64,000 nucleotides of DNA from the IMG/VR virus record IMGVR_UViG_3300028198_000256, positions 1 to 64,000 of that record. One strand, given 5' to 3'. The DNA comes from a virus. The notes beneath the pieces are model-generated. The model was not told the origin of the DNA and did not search any database. It saw nothing but the letters and a program-made list of their open reading frames with translations. A program made the position numbers and the translations under genes. Positions 3,001 through 15,820 of this stretch are shown here, in pieces. Each line of letters opens with the position of its first letter. Position 1 is the stretch's first letter.

Positions 3001-5685
3001 ACCAAAGTTATAAAAGGTACCACCAAGTAAAACACTAGTTTGAAAATCTAAAAGTAAAATATTATCATCATATTTATCATCCGCATTGGATATAATAACT
3101 TTAACCTCAGTAGAAATCTTAGAATTGTATATTTTATTGTGATATCCAATATTATATGAATGAGTCCTAGCTAGACTATCTTGTACCCATTCCAAAGAAA
3201 TATATTCGGCGCTGCTAGTACAACTAGATATAACACCAAAAACACCAGTACCGCCAGTGCCCAAATCATTAAATTCCAACACTTCACCTGTAATATAATT
3301 CTCACCAGCAGATTCCACAACAACACCGTCAACAGAACCAACTCTAACAGATGCAACATGACAATCAAATCCACTACCACTACCCGGATCTATCATATTA
3401 AATGCAAGTGATTCTCCCACATTATAACCACTTCCACCATGAATAACATCAATTGAGGATATAACTACATATAAACTTTCAGTAAACGAATTATTATCAT
3501 TATCCGTTATTGTTACGGATTCCCCTTTAATAAATCTACCAACCATATTAGAAATGAAATATTCCTCTACTGGACTAATCTCGATATAATATGAAAGATG
3601 TCTGTCTATAGTTGCCACAGAACCACTAATATTACCAACCACCAATTTAGGATTATATGTTTCATCATTATAATTAACAGCAACACCATATCTATCTATA
3701 AATGGCACACATCGTATACTTTGTTGTATTTCCCATGTATTATCACTTGGCTTAAAAGTATATTTACTTGGATAAAAAAAGTCAACATCTTTTTGGAAAA
3801 AAAGATTAAATAAAAATTTATATGACTGTTCCGTTCCTTTATTAGAATAAAATGTCTTCATAAACTTTATAAGTTTAGACCTGTCTGCAAGAACTTTAAT
3901 ATTATCACTATTGGTATTAGAACGTCGTTCTATCTCAGTTTTACTAATATATGTTGTTGATATTCTATAAAGAACACGAACTACTGTCTGTGATTTAGGA
4001 ATCCATCTTGTCTCATTTATAGGATCTTTAAAAACGATTATACCGTCTTCTATGTTATAATAATCATTAGGTAGTTTTACAAAATCACCACTAGACATAT
4101 CATATTTCATATCAAATATTAAATTGTTAAATACCCCACCATCCAATACTTCAACTTTAAACATCATAAAGACTGTTCCTACAGGAACAGGTATATCATT
4201 ATTAATATTATTAATATTAATATAAGGAACTTCCCACAAACCGCCATTTAATTGACATGAACTTTCTGTATTATATCCAGACACAGTACATGACTTGTTG
4301 ACCCCATTATCAAATTTGACAAATAATTTAATATTATTATCAAATAAGTCTAATTTTATATTAGATAAATAAAGAATAGACATGAGCGGGTCTGACACAC
4401 TACCAATAGTAAAGATATGTTCTTCATCCCCGACCGCGTTGCCATTGCCATAGAATATATAATTTCTGATATATTGTGTTATAATAGGAAGATGATACGA
4501 ATCCCCATGTTCTATAATACTTACCTCATTAACTGATTTAGATTCGGAAACATTAAATTCAATTTGACCATCTCTCCCGATTCCATCAATATCTTCCACC
4601 TCTACAATATATTTTCCTGGAGTTAAAGAATGCCCAACATTATATAAACTAGCACCACTTATTAATGTCTCATCTTCATCATCAATCATGACATCAGTCA
4701 ATTCTCCTGAAGAATTTTCAATCTCAAATTTGAATTTAGGTAAAATACTATAGTTAGTTGATATTCCAAAACCACCATGCATATTTAATTTATTTAAAAA
4801 ATCAACACGTAATGATGATGAACTTTGATTATATCCAGATCCGTTCTCTATTATAATCGGGGATGTAATACTACCAGATATTACTGTAACTTCAAGTATC
4901 CCACCTTGTCCGTCGTTACCATCAAACCCCCCAACATTAAGAATATATACACCATCCGTCCACCCATATGATGGATATATAACAACAACTTCATATAACG
5001 ATCCCAATTGTCCAAGAACAAATTCAAATCTAGGATATTCAATAATAATGTTAGAGGGGTTAAATCGAAGTTCGTTAATAAATTCGGAAATATCTGAAGA
5101 AGATCTTGACCCAAATGTATCAATTTCATTATATAATGGAACAGTAGTTGTATTTACTTGATTAGAAAGTAGTGGTATGCCATTTGCATCAATAGGTATA
5201 AAAAAAGAATTTAAATCTGGATTAATATATACTGAAATATCATCTACTTTTTGTAAAAAACTTTTATCGTTATAATATGAAGGTTCATAATGTGATAAAT
5301 TGAATTGAGAAACTACACCATTTCCAACAAAATTATCAGAAGAATATGTTACCGTAGAACTTTCACGATTTCTTAAATTTAATTTATTTCTACGAGTATT
5401 ACTTTCATTCGTTTCATCTATACTATTATTAATAGTAATAACTGTTGGCATATCAAATGCCATTTCTTTAATATAATATTGGCCAAATAAATGAGAAACA
5501 TTATCTATATCAGAATCTTGTAATAATCCAGCAGAAACCCCCAATGGATTACCATCTTGTGCCATCCATTCATAATATAATTCTAAAAATTCAATATATG
5601 TGTTATATTCCCCAGACTCACGCATCCAACTTGGAATTTGTTCCGATATGTCATCTGTCAACCATTTTAATTTAGAAGTATCCAT
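1..5685 (-). CDS. Giant baseplate/virion structural protein, partial (C-terminus off the left edge)
   Basis: One minus-strand frame stays open from an ATG at 5685 to the left edge, at least 1895 residues with no stop, so the gene is truncated only by the window. It starts 4 bases after gp6, the position of gene 7 in T4. The N-terminus (WLTDDISEQIPSWMRES, then a FLELYYEWMAQ stretch) and a late motif near residue 1790 (KKVIHPAGFEVFGEF) are of a kind I associate with large baseplate-associated proteins of T4-like marine phages. Around residues 1090-1250 (nt about 2420-1940) there is a LamG/concanavalin-like segment with FTIDFWYHP and a later SLYLNGK strand, which suggests glycan or receptor binding. 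Many Gly/Asp-rich beta repeats (SGSGYKTLP, GGSGYNVGES) fill the rest. The gp7-type role is inferred from position; the structural role is fairly secure. Confidence 0.8.
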   Translation of the reverse strand, partial: MDTSKLKWLTDDISEQIPSWMRESGEYNTYIEFLELYYEWMAQDGNPLGVSAGLLQDSDIDNVSHLFGQYYIKEMAFDMPTVITINNSIDETNESNTRRNKLNLRNRESSTVTYSSDNFVGNGVVSQFNLSHYEPSYYNDKSFLQKVDDISVYINPDLNSFFIPIDANGIPLLSNQVNTTTVPLYNEIDTFGSRSSSDISEFINELRFNPSNIIIEYPRFEFVLGQLGSLYEVVVIYPSYGWTDGVYILNVGGFDGNDGQGGILEVTVISGSITSPIIIENGSGYNQSSSSLRVDFLNKLNMHGGFGISTNYSILPKFKFEIENSSGELTDVMIDDEDETLISGASLYNVGHSLTPGKYIVEVEDIDGIGRDGQIEFNVSESKSVNEVSIIEHGDSYHLPIITQYIRNYIFYGNGNAVGDEEHIFTIGSVSDPLMSILYLSNIKLDLFDNNIKLFVKFDNGVNKSCTVSGYNTESSCQLNGGLWEVPYININNINNDIPVPVGTVFMMFKVEVLDGGVFNNLIFDMKYDMSSGDFVKLPNDYYNIEDGIIVFKDPINETRWIPKSQTVVRVLYRISTTYISKTEIERRSNTNSDNIKVLADRSKLIKFMKTFYSNKGTEQSYKFLFNLFFQKDVDFFYPSKYTFKPSDNTWEIQQSIRCVPFIDRYGVAVNYNDETYNPKLVVGNISGSVATIDRHLSYYIEISPVEEYFISNMVGRFIKGESVTITDNDNNSFTESLYVVISSIDVIHGGSGYNVGESLAFNMIDPGSGSGFDCHVASVRVGSVDGVVVESAGENYITGEVLEFNDLGTGGTGVFGVISSCTSSAEYISLEWVQDSLARTHSYNIGYHNKIYNSKISTEVKVIISNADDKYDDNILLLDFQTSVLLGGTFYNFGSNNFIDYANNLIIEKNSILLGSFGNHDGVCRVVKDNRVDPILSSISPDLFFANGSLDIVSCHVESNFNQFTFVSGYGLKSGDYYVMISNTNDSTKGNFSPAYLPVSVLTDTDTQSSTYGISVVTILPHSGTEPGIWITGFNIDAENYIVDYSDILTDHTISYEPVDTNMLNSHSCLVDKGIYTPSTGSDENYHVFDKTEHMTFGDDGDGYVKINGVGELLSPEFNATDDKTYKFTIDFWYHPNFNYNLNPPNWSDEEVIFSLASQYISETPNKLTLVQREFNDKLKFVLVLGPEGHQTELSMDMEDAGVIDYDNVEVSDSGWIHITVEIDFQSSVASLYLNGKATSMTYLKSFVITDGGELYTCNITEGPYANDWQSMVYSWDNAINAVIHEINSINDSNITSKDDELKLFLQESVNGVVRYDINENSDTSDDIDIITEMLNSKKYYWAFYINIISEMLTKSEFDKYFITEGTHLEDEFLIGARRSIVSETNSGSIIIPIESTTHCNGDFATFRITKGHRFDKLPDDTEDTNNYLRMWTANPMIHSRIINSNEYSINDQILDEITGLYSDSYITIYKNVNRINPVMSDLHFDYWEETDTDEKLGKLKETPSNGKLWSDIIFSNGYGLVSGVYHVIISSKPHFGIPDLFGAAKIPVNVVLDVTTGVSTITIISPVGGDISFWTFGAEVKWETQNHNVDYYLLKDIKEHNNIYTDINNIWDDDTKEGHIRIPLMLPDWYTVSLKYHNLSVGGISSLHLYSSGSGYKTLPSVGVSDKSGDYVSKGSGAILRCVSDDIGGISTVAIGSYVTGLANRWDDFGIGYEVTPILDLVSKGNGNAEIKLNTGIVCSRVGYSLSEKDSMPSNAVKCQDSMLWQDYSYVLRSGVTIDKWRDIIKKVIHPAGFEVFGEFVLEADTFIRSSKTKGVPYLRFHIIKNVEITVDVMDGLGVWTKGLEKDDISGDIVYKTDVVNVNNLYSGGHHNTVSYDNLQSTILGLKSGTDVD

Positions 5686-5689
5686 AATA

Positions 5690-7621
5690 TTAAATTATAT
5701 TTACTGATCTTACTGAAGAATTTTCTGAACTATAAAATAAATCATTATCCATTATATCTATAGATATATTAGTTTGGTCTATATATAATATTTGATTGCC
5801 CCTTGGATATATATCATCCGATGTCAAAGAACATGTAACCGATATATCAGTATAATAATCACTTTCTAATATAATAACATTATCAATACGCACTAATCCC
5901 TTATTATAATCACATATACCTTTTAAATATGTATTAACTATGAATTCACCTTCTATTTCTCCCTTTCTATGAAATAACAAATGACCATCATGTTTTTCAT
6001 CATCAACAAAATGCCACAAAAATTCAGAATCTGGGATTCTGAATTCAGAAGAACGCACCGTACCTTTCTTTATTTTATTAGAAAAGTTAAAAATATAAGT
6101 ATATGGCTTACCATGTCCAGGGATGTCTTCATTAACTCTAAGAACAATATCCGTTAAATTATTTTCAATAGAGTGATGTGTATTATCTATCATCGCAAGA
6201 AACTTAGAATATCTAAAATAATCACCAAAACTATTTAAATCTTCTTTAGAAAATCTAACAACTTCGTCATAAACCATATTTTTAATATCATCAGAAGAAC
6301 GAGTTGTTTGATCCGAATTGTACTTAATCATGATTTTAATACCCAATTTAATATATTTTGGACTAACAATAATAGGAGAAATACCAAGCATAGAATGATT
6401 ACGTTTTAAATCGTATTCTATATTACTGCGTTCCACTTCTGATATATAATCACCAAACTTAGGTCTTATTGATATAAATATACTTCCATATTTGGGTGGT
6501 ATGTTATCTTCCCCACCCCATACATTTAAAGATTCAACCAATGGATATACTTCTTTAATAATAATTTTATAATCCTCTAATGTGACTGCTCGTTTTTGTG
6601 AAGAAAATGCTCTTGGTGCAGCGTGTCTTATTTCTTCTAAAGTTTCTTTATCACCACCGCCAAATGTTTTAGAATTTATAAAAATCGATGATTCATCAAT
6701 ACCTAAAAACGAAGTATCAACTATATTGTATAACGGATTCTCTGCGTCGTTATCAAATATAATACCTTGCCCTATTCCGTTAGCCGCAGATCCAACGCAA
6801 TCTAAATATGTAACTTTAATCAGGTCATTAGATGTCAATTTTCTACCAAACACTCCATCACCAAAATATATTTCATATTGTTCATTGATGCTCTCTTGCA
6901 AGAAAAAAACCAAACTATCTTTATCTAACTTCATATTATCACGTTCTAAATAATATTCTGATATATTATCACTTTCCATATCAGAATATGTAATAAAAAC
7001 ACGAAGGGTGTCTGTATCTATACCACTATTATTTAATATGAATTTTTGATTTATATCCGACTCATCATAATAAAAATATTCTTCTATTACATTCCCCTGT
7101 AATAATATAAAATCATCTAACCTAAATATATCATACTTACGACCCTCAACACCACCAATAACATTCGAATGAGTACGTACTGCATATCCTTCTTTTTCAG
7201 GATAAAAACTCCACGGACTTCCGTCTTTACGATTCAATTTAAATTTAGCAGATCTAGTGATGGGTAAAAATCTAGTAGGTAATGACTCAGAATCTGACCG
7301 TATTTCAACAACGGCAATAAGATTAACAGAAACTTTAGCACATGTATTAGATTTGGGTATATATCCTAACAATTTACACTTGGATATGACATTTTCCCGT
7401 ATTTGTGCAGTATCTAGAAACATCTCAGATGCTATCATATTTAAATAATATGCATGATGATGTGTATTATATGCTAAAATATCTATTAGTGAGTTTAAAC
7501 CAGATCCCTCAAAATCATAACTATTAAAAGTTTTATTTGTTGGGTGATTTCTCATATACTCAATTATACTAGATTTTATTGCTTTAAAATCTAATTCTGC
7601 AACTTTTATATTCTTTTCCAT
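5690..7621 (-). CDS. gp6: Baseplate wedge protein gp6
   Basis: A 643-residue protein close to the length of T4 gp6, which forms the inner ring of the baseplate wedge with gp25 and gp53. The N-terminal third (FEGSGLNSLIDILAYNTHHH, then SEMFLDTAQIRENVISKCKLLGY) is the typical gp6/baseplate-J opening, and the middle has the IYFGDGVFGRKL and FGGGDKETLEEIRHAAPRAF motifs characteristic of J-like wedge proteins. It lies directly downstream of gp25 (2-base gap), as expected for proteins that assemble together. The start is the ATG at 7621. Confidence 0.92.
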   Translation of the reverse strand: MEKNIKVAELDFKAIKSSIIEYMRNHPTNKTFNSYDFEGSGLNSLIDILAYNTHHHAYYLNMIASEMFLDTAQIRENVISKCKLLGYIPKSNTCAKVSVNLIAVVEIRSDSESLPTRFLPITRSAKFKLNRKDGSPWSFYPEKEGYAVRTHSNVIGGVEGRKYDIFRLDDFILLQGNVIEEYFYYDESDINQKFILNNSGIDTDTLRVFITYSDMESDNISEYYLERDNMKLDKDSLVFFLQESINEQYEIYFGDGVFGRKLTSNDLIKVTYLDCVGSAANGIGQGIIFDNDAENPLYNIVDTSFLGIDESSIFINSKTFGGGDKETLEEIRHAAPRAFSSQKRAVTLEDYKIIIKEVYPLVESLNVWGGEDNIPPKYGSIFISIRPKFGDYISEVERSNIEYDLKRNHSMLGISPIIVSPKYIKLGIKIMIKYNSDQTTRSSDDIKNMVYDEVVRFSKEDLNSFGDYFRYSKFLAMIDNTHHSIENNLTDIVLRVNEDIPGHGKPYTYIFNFSNKIKKGTVRSSEFRIPDSEFLWHFVDDEKHDGHLLFHRKGEIEGEFIVNTYLKGICDYNKGLVRIDNVIILESDYYTDISVTCSLTSDDIYPRGNQILYIDQTNISIDIMDNDLFYSSENSSVRSVNII

Positions 7622-7623
7622 AT

Positions 7624-8070
7624 CTATCTTACTCTATATAATGAAATTGATGTTGATATTATTTCGTTACTATTTGATGTTAGGGTTTGATATCGCAAAG
7701 TAATTTCAAACCCACCGTTAACATCATTGTCGGATTCTTCTAATGATATATCAATTATATCAATTCTCGATTCAAGTGTGCCCAACGTTGTCTTAATACC
7801 TTCGAGAATTCGTCTTATATATATTTTGTCGTTTAAATTCTCAAACAACAATTTACCTATACTTGTACCAAATCCCATATTAAACACACGTTCAGAATTA
7901 TTAGTTAATAAAATATTCTTCATAGATTGAGACATTGCGTCTTTACCATACAATATATTTATATCACCGGTAGTGTTTAATCCATTATGTTCTGTATTTT
8001 TTGAAAAAGTTAAATCAAAATCTTTCCAAAAATCTTCCTTTTTATTTAAAATTGTAGTATTATATGACAT
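7624..8070 (-). CDS. gp25: Baseplate wedge protein gp25 (lysozyme-like fold family)
   Basis: A 148-residue protein matching the size of the gp25/GpW family, the small wedge subunit that bridges gp6 to the sheath. It carries the family hallmark GTSIGKLLFENLND after the NILYGKDAMSQSMKNILLT segment; the family's conserved arginine-containing EPR motif is not evident here, but the spacing and the downstream RRILEGIKTTL helix fit. It sits between the gp5-like hub gene and gp6, in the same transcription unit. Possible late promoter box TATAAATA (minus strand) lies at 8125-8132 inside the upstream gene. Confidence 0.9.
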   Translation of the reverse strand: MSYNTTILNKKEDFWKDFDLTFSKNTEHNGLNTTGDINILYGKDAMSQSMKNILLTNNSERVFNMGFGTSIGKLLFENLNDKIYIRRILEGIKTTLGTLESRIDIIDISLEESDNDVNGGFEITLRYQTLTSNSNEIISTSISLYRVR

Positions 8071-14638: not shown

Positions 14639-14707
14639 ATATTTCAAATAAGTGGCATCGACAAAAAATAATGAAAGACGCTTTAAACAATGAAAGGAAA
14701 AAAAATT

Positions 14708-15439
14708 ATGAATTTACCAAAAATAGAAACAGTAACATATGAATTGACAGTACCATCATCAAACGAAATTATAAAGTATAGACCCTTTTTAGTAAAAGAA
14801 GAAAAAATATTATTAATGACAAAAGAAAGTGAAAATCCAGACGCATTAGAAATTTCAGTTGTAATAAAACAAATTGTTAATAATTGTATACTATCTGATG
14901 TAAATATAAATGACCTTGCAACATTTGACTTGGAATATATATTTATAAATTTACGATCCAAATCGGTTGGGAATACCATTGATTTAATATATGACCACGA
15001 CTGTCCAAATGAGGAAACGACTGAAAATATACCATTTATCGTAAATTTAGATGAAGTTGTCGTGGAAGATATTAATCCAGATAGTAATATTATAAAAATA
15101 ACAGATGATGTATCTATTATTATGAAATACCCAGATTATGATCTAATAAAAGACTTATATTCTAATAATGAAGATAATAACAAAAAAATAGAAGATATGG
15201 AAATAGTTATTCGTTCAATAAAATATATTACTGAGAATGATACTAAACATCTTGTGGCTAATTATTCAACTGAAGAAATCACAGAATTTTTAGAATCGCT
15301 CACTTCTAATCAATTTAAAAAAATCTTTTCTTTCTTCAATACTATGCCGGCAACTTCATATAGAACAGAATTAAAATGTGAACATTGTGACTTTACACAT
15401 GACGCACACTTGACAGGAATAGTTGATTTTTTCGTATAA
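14708..15439 (+). CDS. gp26: Baseplate hub assembly protein gp26-like (tail chaperone, short form)
   Basis: A 243-residue protein with the gp26 family N-terminus (NLPKIETVTYELTVPSSNEI, then YRPFLVKEEKILLMTKES) and a C-terminal Cys pair region (LKCEHCDFTHDAHLTGIVDF). An earlier ATG at 14690 exists, but AAAGGA sits 10 bases before the ATG at 14708, so I take 14708. The family helps build the hub around the tape measure. The last codons contain a T TTT TTC slippery heptamer followed by an open -1 frame, so this is probably the short product of a frameshifting pair. Confidence 0.85.
   Translation: MNLPKIETVTYELTVPSSNEIIKYRPFLVKEEKILLMTKESENPDALEISVVIKQIVNNCILSDVNINDLATFDLEYIFINLRSKSVGNTIDLIYDHDCPNEETTENIPFIVNLDEVVVEDINPDSNIIKITDDVSIIMKYPDYDLIKDLYSNNEDNNKKIEDMEIVIRSIKYITENDTKHLVANYSTEEITEFLESLTSNQFKKIFSFFNTMPATSYRTELKCEHCDFTHDAHLTGIVDFFV
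15427..15433 (+). other. Slippery heptamer for -1 ribosomal frameshifting
   Basis: The sequence is T TTT TTC in phase with the gp26 codons (GAT TTT TTC GTA TAA), 2 codons before the gp26 stop. The -1 frame has a stop just before the heptamer (15424-15426) and is then open to 15603. This is the X XXY YYZ layout of programmed -1 frameshift sites in tail-assembly chaperone genes. Confidence 0.75.
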
Positions 15440-15603
15440 GTCTATATCATGATACATTATTTGAACATTATAAAACTAATTTTGCATTGATGCAACACCA
15501 CAACTATTCGTTAACCGAACTGGATAACATGATACCATTTGAACGAGATATATATATATCTTTATTGTCACAACATATTTTAGAAATGGAAAACAAAAAA
15601 TAA
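15433..15603 (+). CDS. gp51: gp51-like extension made by -1 frameshift from gp26
   Basis: After slippage the frame reads RISLYHDTLFEHYKTNF, then HHNYSLTELDNMIPFERDIY and a final helix, ending TAA at 15603 (56 codons). The segment resembles the C-terminal T-domain of G/GT tail chaperones (an aromatic-rich helix, then SLTELxxMIPFERxIY). The first ATG in this frame is at 15490, after the conserved start of the segment, and it has no good ribosome site, so independent translation is unlikely. The fusion product would be about 300 residues. Confidence 0.72.
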   Translation, partial: RISLYHDTLFEHYKTNFALMQHHNYSLTELDNMIPFERDIYISLLSQHILEMENKK

Positions 15604-15604
15604 T

Positions 15605-15820
15605 ATGATAAATAAAATAATCAAACTGGCAGAAGCTATAGATTCATTAAGAATATTTCCAAGAATATTTATATCTATATATATGATTTTATTATATAAA
15701 TCAATTATATGGTTTATGGATCTATCAGCACCAACATCAGAACAAGCAGCATTAATATCAGTAATTACTGGTGTTGGTGCTGCTTGGTTTGGTTTATATA
15801 TTGGATCAGGAAAAAAATAA
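15605..15820 (+). CDS. Small holin-like membrane protein
   Basis: A 71-residue protein with a hydrophobic segment at residues 18-38 and a second at 47-66 (AALISVITGVGAAWFGLYIG), with a charged GSGKK end. The TSEQAALISVITG..AAWFGLYI pattern recurs in marine phage small membrane proteins often listed as holins. It lies between the tail chaperone and the tape measure, so a virion role is also possible. Function is inferred. Confidence 0.65.
   Translation: MINKIIKLAEAIDSLRIFPRIFISIYMILLYKSIIWFMDLSAPTSEQAALISVITGVGAAWFGLYIGSGKK

Follow-up and report, generated by a model that had tools for sequence, protein, structure and literature searches.

Reading frames at the end of gp26

The DNA under study comprises positions 1 to 64,000 of the IMG/VR virus record IMGVR_UViG_3300028198_000256 (the window), an AT-rich record of 115 kb in total. 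A gp26-like reading frame in the window ends in GGA ATA GTT GAT TTT TTC GTA TAA, with the TAA at positions 15437–15439. This end contains a slippery heptamer of the X_XXY_YYZ type, in phase with gp26, and a TGA of the -1 frame is located directly 5′ of it (Table 1). As this stop codon abuts the heptamer, any upstream start for the -1 frame is excluded. The initial annotation of the locus had described an in-phase T TTT TTC right after a -1 stop, and both elements are present. Its placement of the heptamer two codons before the gp26 stop is correct as to location; put exactly, only one codon separates the last codon of the heptamer from the stop. As had been claimed, the -1 frame is open: the stretch at 15427–15603 spans 58 codons including the heptamer and 56 past the slip.

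The -1 frame after gp26 encodes SLTELDNMIPFERDIY, and its product reads FFRISLYHDTLFEHYKTNFALMQHHNYSLTELDNMIPFERDIYISLLSQHILEMENKK. In the window sequence, no ATG, GTG or TTG of this frame precedes position 15487 in the coding sequence of FFRISLYHDTLFEHYKTNFALMQHHNYSLTELDNMIPFERDIYISLLSQHILEMENKK; the earliest TTG and ATG are located at 15487 and 15490, within the conserved domain. The first ATG comes too late to take in the beginning of the conserved sequence, as originally noted. The open reading frame of gp26 itself begins at an ATG at 14690 (frame 14690–15439). The true start is probably the ATG at 14708, because the MALPK start of relatives aligns with MNLPK in the window. With this start, the short form would comprise about 243 amino acids and the fusion about 298, and the predicted peptide across the frame junction of the fusion is GIVDFFRISLYH. 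TTTTTTC is present at 60 places in the 115 kb record; a heptamer this frequent in AT-rich DNA is weak proof if taken alone.

Table 1. Features of the gp26 locus in the window (positions refer to the window).
Feature	Position	Strand	Evidence and remarks
gp26-like short form (G / TAC-N)	14708–15439	+	PF12322 6.7e-51; phrog_150 5.5e-53; probable start from alignment with relatives
Shine-Dalgarno-like AGGA, possible stimulator	15415–15418	+	gap to heptamer 8 nt; putative function
-1 frame TGA stop, directly 5′ of heptamer	15424–15426	+	sequence, list of open reading frames
Slippery heptamer T TTT TTC	15427–15433	+	in phase with gp26, X_XXY_YYZ type
-1 frame T domain	15433–15603 (stop TAA 15601–15603)	+	56 codons after slip; phrog_634 3e-24; phrog_150 C-terminal part 5.3e-9; third-position changes
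Candidate tape measure gene, 1382 aa	15844–19992	+	putative G-GT-TMP synteny; weak phrog_4372 match, E 0.021

Domains encoded by the two frames

The gp26 short form matches PF12322 at residues 15–248, and phrog_150. The -1 frame matches phrog_634, a family described as "baseplate hub assembly catalyst" (gp51), as well as the C-terminal end of phrog_150, in agreement with the earlier proposal of a T-domain-like or gp51-like sequence in this frame. The phrog_634 match is shared by the -1 frame of the window and residues 147–246 of T4 gp51 (1.2e-23). In the 115 kb record, PF12322 is found at one place, which is this locus, and so is phrog_634; a search for a second, separate gp51 gene across the same record returned none. 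Databases assign the two domains to different proteins, "hub" and "hub assembly catalyst", whereas the product encoded in the window matches both.

An AlphaFold model of a T4-like gp51 (pLDDT 95) matches other T4-like hub proteins, including gp26. Comparison of this model with the PDB gave no match at E <= 0.001, and no solved tail chaperone; a search by sequence for a solved structural relative found none either.

Conservation of the slippery site and the -1 frame

Alignment of relatives had been proposed as a check of the frameshift. IMG/VR and named phages supplied 150 complete loci, which were grouped into 56 clusters at 85% protein identity. They cover Kyanoviridae, KVP40-like phages, Emmerichvirinae, Pootjesviridae, Menderavirus and uncultured phages. 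Named Kyanoviridae and relatives include S-PM2, P-HM1, S-CRM01, Mosig, Melnitz-3 and OC; other named members are KVP40, Aeromonas 65, AS-yj, Cronobacter LPCS28, phiM9 and OLIVR5 (both Pootjesviridae), Marzo and Milchi. Used as lone scan queries, the gp26 proteins of KVP40 and of one Ackermannviridae phage retrieved only two loci each.

An in-phase T TTT TTN closes gp26 in 56 of 56 clusters and opens into the same -1 frame domain in each of them. The variants are TTTTTTC (30 clusters), TTTTTTT (22), TTTTTTA (2) and TTTTTTG (2), so that the second residue is Phe or Leu. Elsewhere in gp26, just 8 of 13,027 codon positions carry TTTTTT in phase. The stop codon of the 0 frame follows at a variable distance, 7–31 nt when counted from the heptamer's first T, and the amino acids vary among relatives. 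All 56 slip sites use TTT as the first Phe codon, versus 16 of 50 Phe-Phe pairs elsewhere in these genes, and the base preceding it is T in all 56 versus 14 of 50. This bias indicates that nucleotides are held at the site, beyond the amino acids that they encode. Clusters share descent, and these counts are therefore not independent trials.

The -1 frame is open in all complete cases, and 52 of the 56 clusters display the motif MxP[WFYL]E. Differences within this frame are distributed over the three codon positions as 9684/5792/16168, mostly at third positions. The same arrangement is found in 14 named phage genomes.

Possible stimulators of slippage

In 46 of 56 clusters, the 20 nt that precede the heptamer contain a Shine-Dalgarno-like match (4 nt or longer), with a gap of mostly 8–10 nt, compared with a background of 26% of windows elsewhere in gp26. 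Part of this signal is due to a conserved Gly codon, so that selection for the motif is not separable from protein constraint. Just downstream of the site, RNA structure in relatives reaches a mean z of -1.2 at +12, while other windows of gp26 are mostly close to 0. Long, strong hairpins are present in some of these relatives, whereas no stimulatory hairpin was found downstream of the site in the window (z about +1).

In S-PM2, a 14-bp hairpin is located a few bases past the slippery site, near the gp26 stop (4218), with a z of -9.4. It is likely an extra stimulator that is absent from the window.

Interpretation and alternative explanations

We are highly confident, on the basis of sequence comparison, that gp26 and its -1 frame make up a single tail-assembly chaperone gene from which a programmed -1 frameshift would give G and GT forms. 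The initial annotation had proposed such a frameshift by analogy with lambda G/GT, and the domain matches together with the conservation of the site in 56/56 clusters strongly support it.

Most ribosomes would terminate at 15437 and release the short form (G or TAC-N). A minority would move back by one base at T TTT TTC, where tRNA-Phe would pair anew in both the P and the A site; the Shine-Dalgarno-like motif 8 nt upstream probably aids this step. Slipped ribosomes would continue into the long form (GT or TAC-NC), which carries a small helical T domain. By analogy with lambda, both forms probably bind the tape measure protein or coat it, with the T domain as the probable recruiter of the tail tube protein, and both forms would be gone before the virion is complete. 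T4 gp51 is required for assembly and absent from the particle (PMC3004832), which fits the expectation for a chaperone.

One objection is that the -1 frame is open by chance, or that it reflects a recent frameshift mutation or a sequencing error in gp26. The frame is short, the genome is AT-rich and TTTTTTC is common; recurrence of the arrangement in 56 clusters and 14 named phage genomes, together with substitutions of coding type in the -1 frame, refutes this reading, and we regard its probability as close to nil. The T domain may instead be a separate small protein whose translation begins at a start of its own or, through termination-reinitiation, at the gp26 stop. Many database records do annotate a short separate gp51 open reading frame, and in 22 of 56 clusters an ATG no more than 6 nt from the gp26 stop could permit reinitiation. 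Yet none of the start codons is conserved among the 56 clusters, and 19 of them, the window included, have no ATG, GTG or TTG ahead of the T core. Moreover, the conserved sequence starts at the heptamer itself, the spacing of the Shine-Dalgarno-like motif appears to suit the slip site and not the ATG, and the T-even phages carry both domains in one chain. Taken together, this makes a separate protein improbable.

The two frames might also be joined by the transcribing polymerase rather than by the ribosome, given the six consecutive T of the site, a run that extends to seven or eight in some relatives. In many members the run stops at six, and strict codon phase in 56/56 clusters and a Shine-Dalgarno-like motif at the spacing of ribosomal stimulators both suit ribosomal slippage better. 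Hence we consider transcriptional slippage very improbable, and a programmed ribosomal frameshift is retained as the preferred reading.

Gene 26 and gene 51 of T4 and the T-even phages

In T4, gene 26 (208 aa, minus strand) adjoins gene 51 (249 aa, plus strand) in divergent orientation. T4 gp26 consists of PF12322 only (8.8e-64). T4 gp51 displays PF12322 at residues 1–201 (3.9e-52), followed by the T domain (phrog_634), and it aligns free of gaps across the frameshift junction. With a full PF12322 domain and a T domain, gp51 equals the whole frameshift product: it is the complete long form, and gp26 is a separate short-form paralogue. This revises the initial suggestion, in which T4 gp26 stood for one part of the fusion and gp51 for the other. 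A separate gp51 gene in relatives, which had been named as evidence against a frameshift, does occur in the T-even phages; being an in-frame long form, it supports the frameshift reading rather than refuting it.

The same two-gene layout is found in JS98, AhMtk13a and Ac42, and by annotation also in the Krischvirus GoldenSnicker. In a tree, T-even gp26 and gp51 group together, apart from all frameshift-type proteins (branch 93/82), as a single duplication would give, with long branches that render the grouping uncertain. T-even phages would thus obtain both forms from paralogous genes, the short one from gene 26 and the long one from gene 51. A weak match (E 9e-4) also links T4 gp26 to phrog_1140, the family of the baseplate hub distal subunit gp28, which is perhaps a further paralogue.

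In the Ackermannviridae SS3, 3M, 207E48.1 and 1.244.A and in the related phage Cygsa01, a T-like domain (pattern GYSxxExxxMPWH) is encoded in the -1 frame after gp26; Cygsa01 falls into the same tree group as Ackermannviridae. Where other members have T TTT TTN, the sites in these phages are G ATT TTC ATT, G GTT TTC ATC, C ATT TTC ACC and CTT TTT CGN, and slippage may take place at such degenerate sites as well. Tentatively, and with considerable doubt, the -1 frameshift may be ancestral to the T4 superfamily, including Ackermannviridae with their degenerate site; the T-even phages would then have lost it once via duplication into 26 (short) and 51 (long).

Relation to known systems

The slippery site of phage lambda is G GGA AAG. 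Both this site and the protein sequence differ from those of the window. Lambda gpG/gpGT likewise consists of a short form and a -1 frameshifted long form, encoded upstream of the tape measure gene (Xu, Hendrix and Duda, 2004; reviewed in PMC5009743). T4 is named there as the exception to the G/GT rule (Atkins et al., 2016; PMC5009743).

Chaperone genes of T4-like phages were identified by Vladimirov, Gautam and Davidson (2022; Virology 566:9–15), with one short gene and one long fusion gene in some of these phages, as cited in PMC10885494. PMC12846349 credits the same work with the poly-T slippery sites of T4-like TAC-N genes. The T4-like gp26/gp51 chaperones resemble the window in protein family and in the pair of a short and a long form, while T4 uses two genes on opposite strands and the window one gene with a -1 site. 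The TAC locus of phage Adele (Vandenendeviridae/Andersonviridae) also has a conserved -1 T-run site at the end of TAC-N, and an open -1 frame that is annotated as a hypothetical open reading frame of its own; it differs from the window in its GTTTTT motif and in the phage families concerned (PMC12846349).

The window adds a new member to a kind of system already described in 2022, and a claim of full novelty was dropped in view of the credit given to Vladimirov et al. by citing papers. As the core idea is already published, the value of the present analysis lies mainly in breadth and precision. Its survey may exceed the 2022 paper in breadth, and precise breadth, Shine-Dalgarno spacing and the degenerate site of Ackermannviridae are possibly new. 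Reading gp26 and its -1 frame as one gene would explain the functions of gp26 and gp51 in a group where T4 has long been listed as an exception to G/GT (PMC5009743). It would also correct the annotation of short "gp51" open reading frames in the cyanophage and related records examined, and flag the likely tape measure gene where genomes state "hypothetical". Finally, it would provide a clear example of gene duplication taking the place of recoding.

Downstream genes and the tape measure candidate

In the window, the T domain is followed by an open reading frame of 71 amino acids and then by one of 1382 amino acids; open reading frames of 575–1109 amino acids follow in relatives. The large product weakly matches the tape measure family phrog_4372 and is a candidate for the tape measure protein, the presumed client of the chaperones. 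The 71-aa product (15605–15820) is a probable membrane protein that matches part of phrog_10198 (8e-22). Other small open reading frames occupy its place in Mosig, Melnitz-3, phiM9 and OLIVR5. In S-PM2, the large open reading frame after the T domain (4389–7717) shows an ADP-ribosyltransferase-like match at its N-terminus (PF01129, 1.1e-5) and a phage tail lysozyme at its C-terminus (PF18013, 6.5e-25), an unusual mix at a tape measure position.
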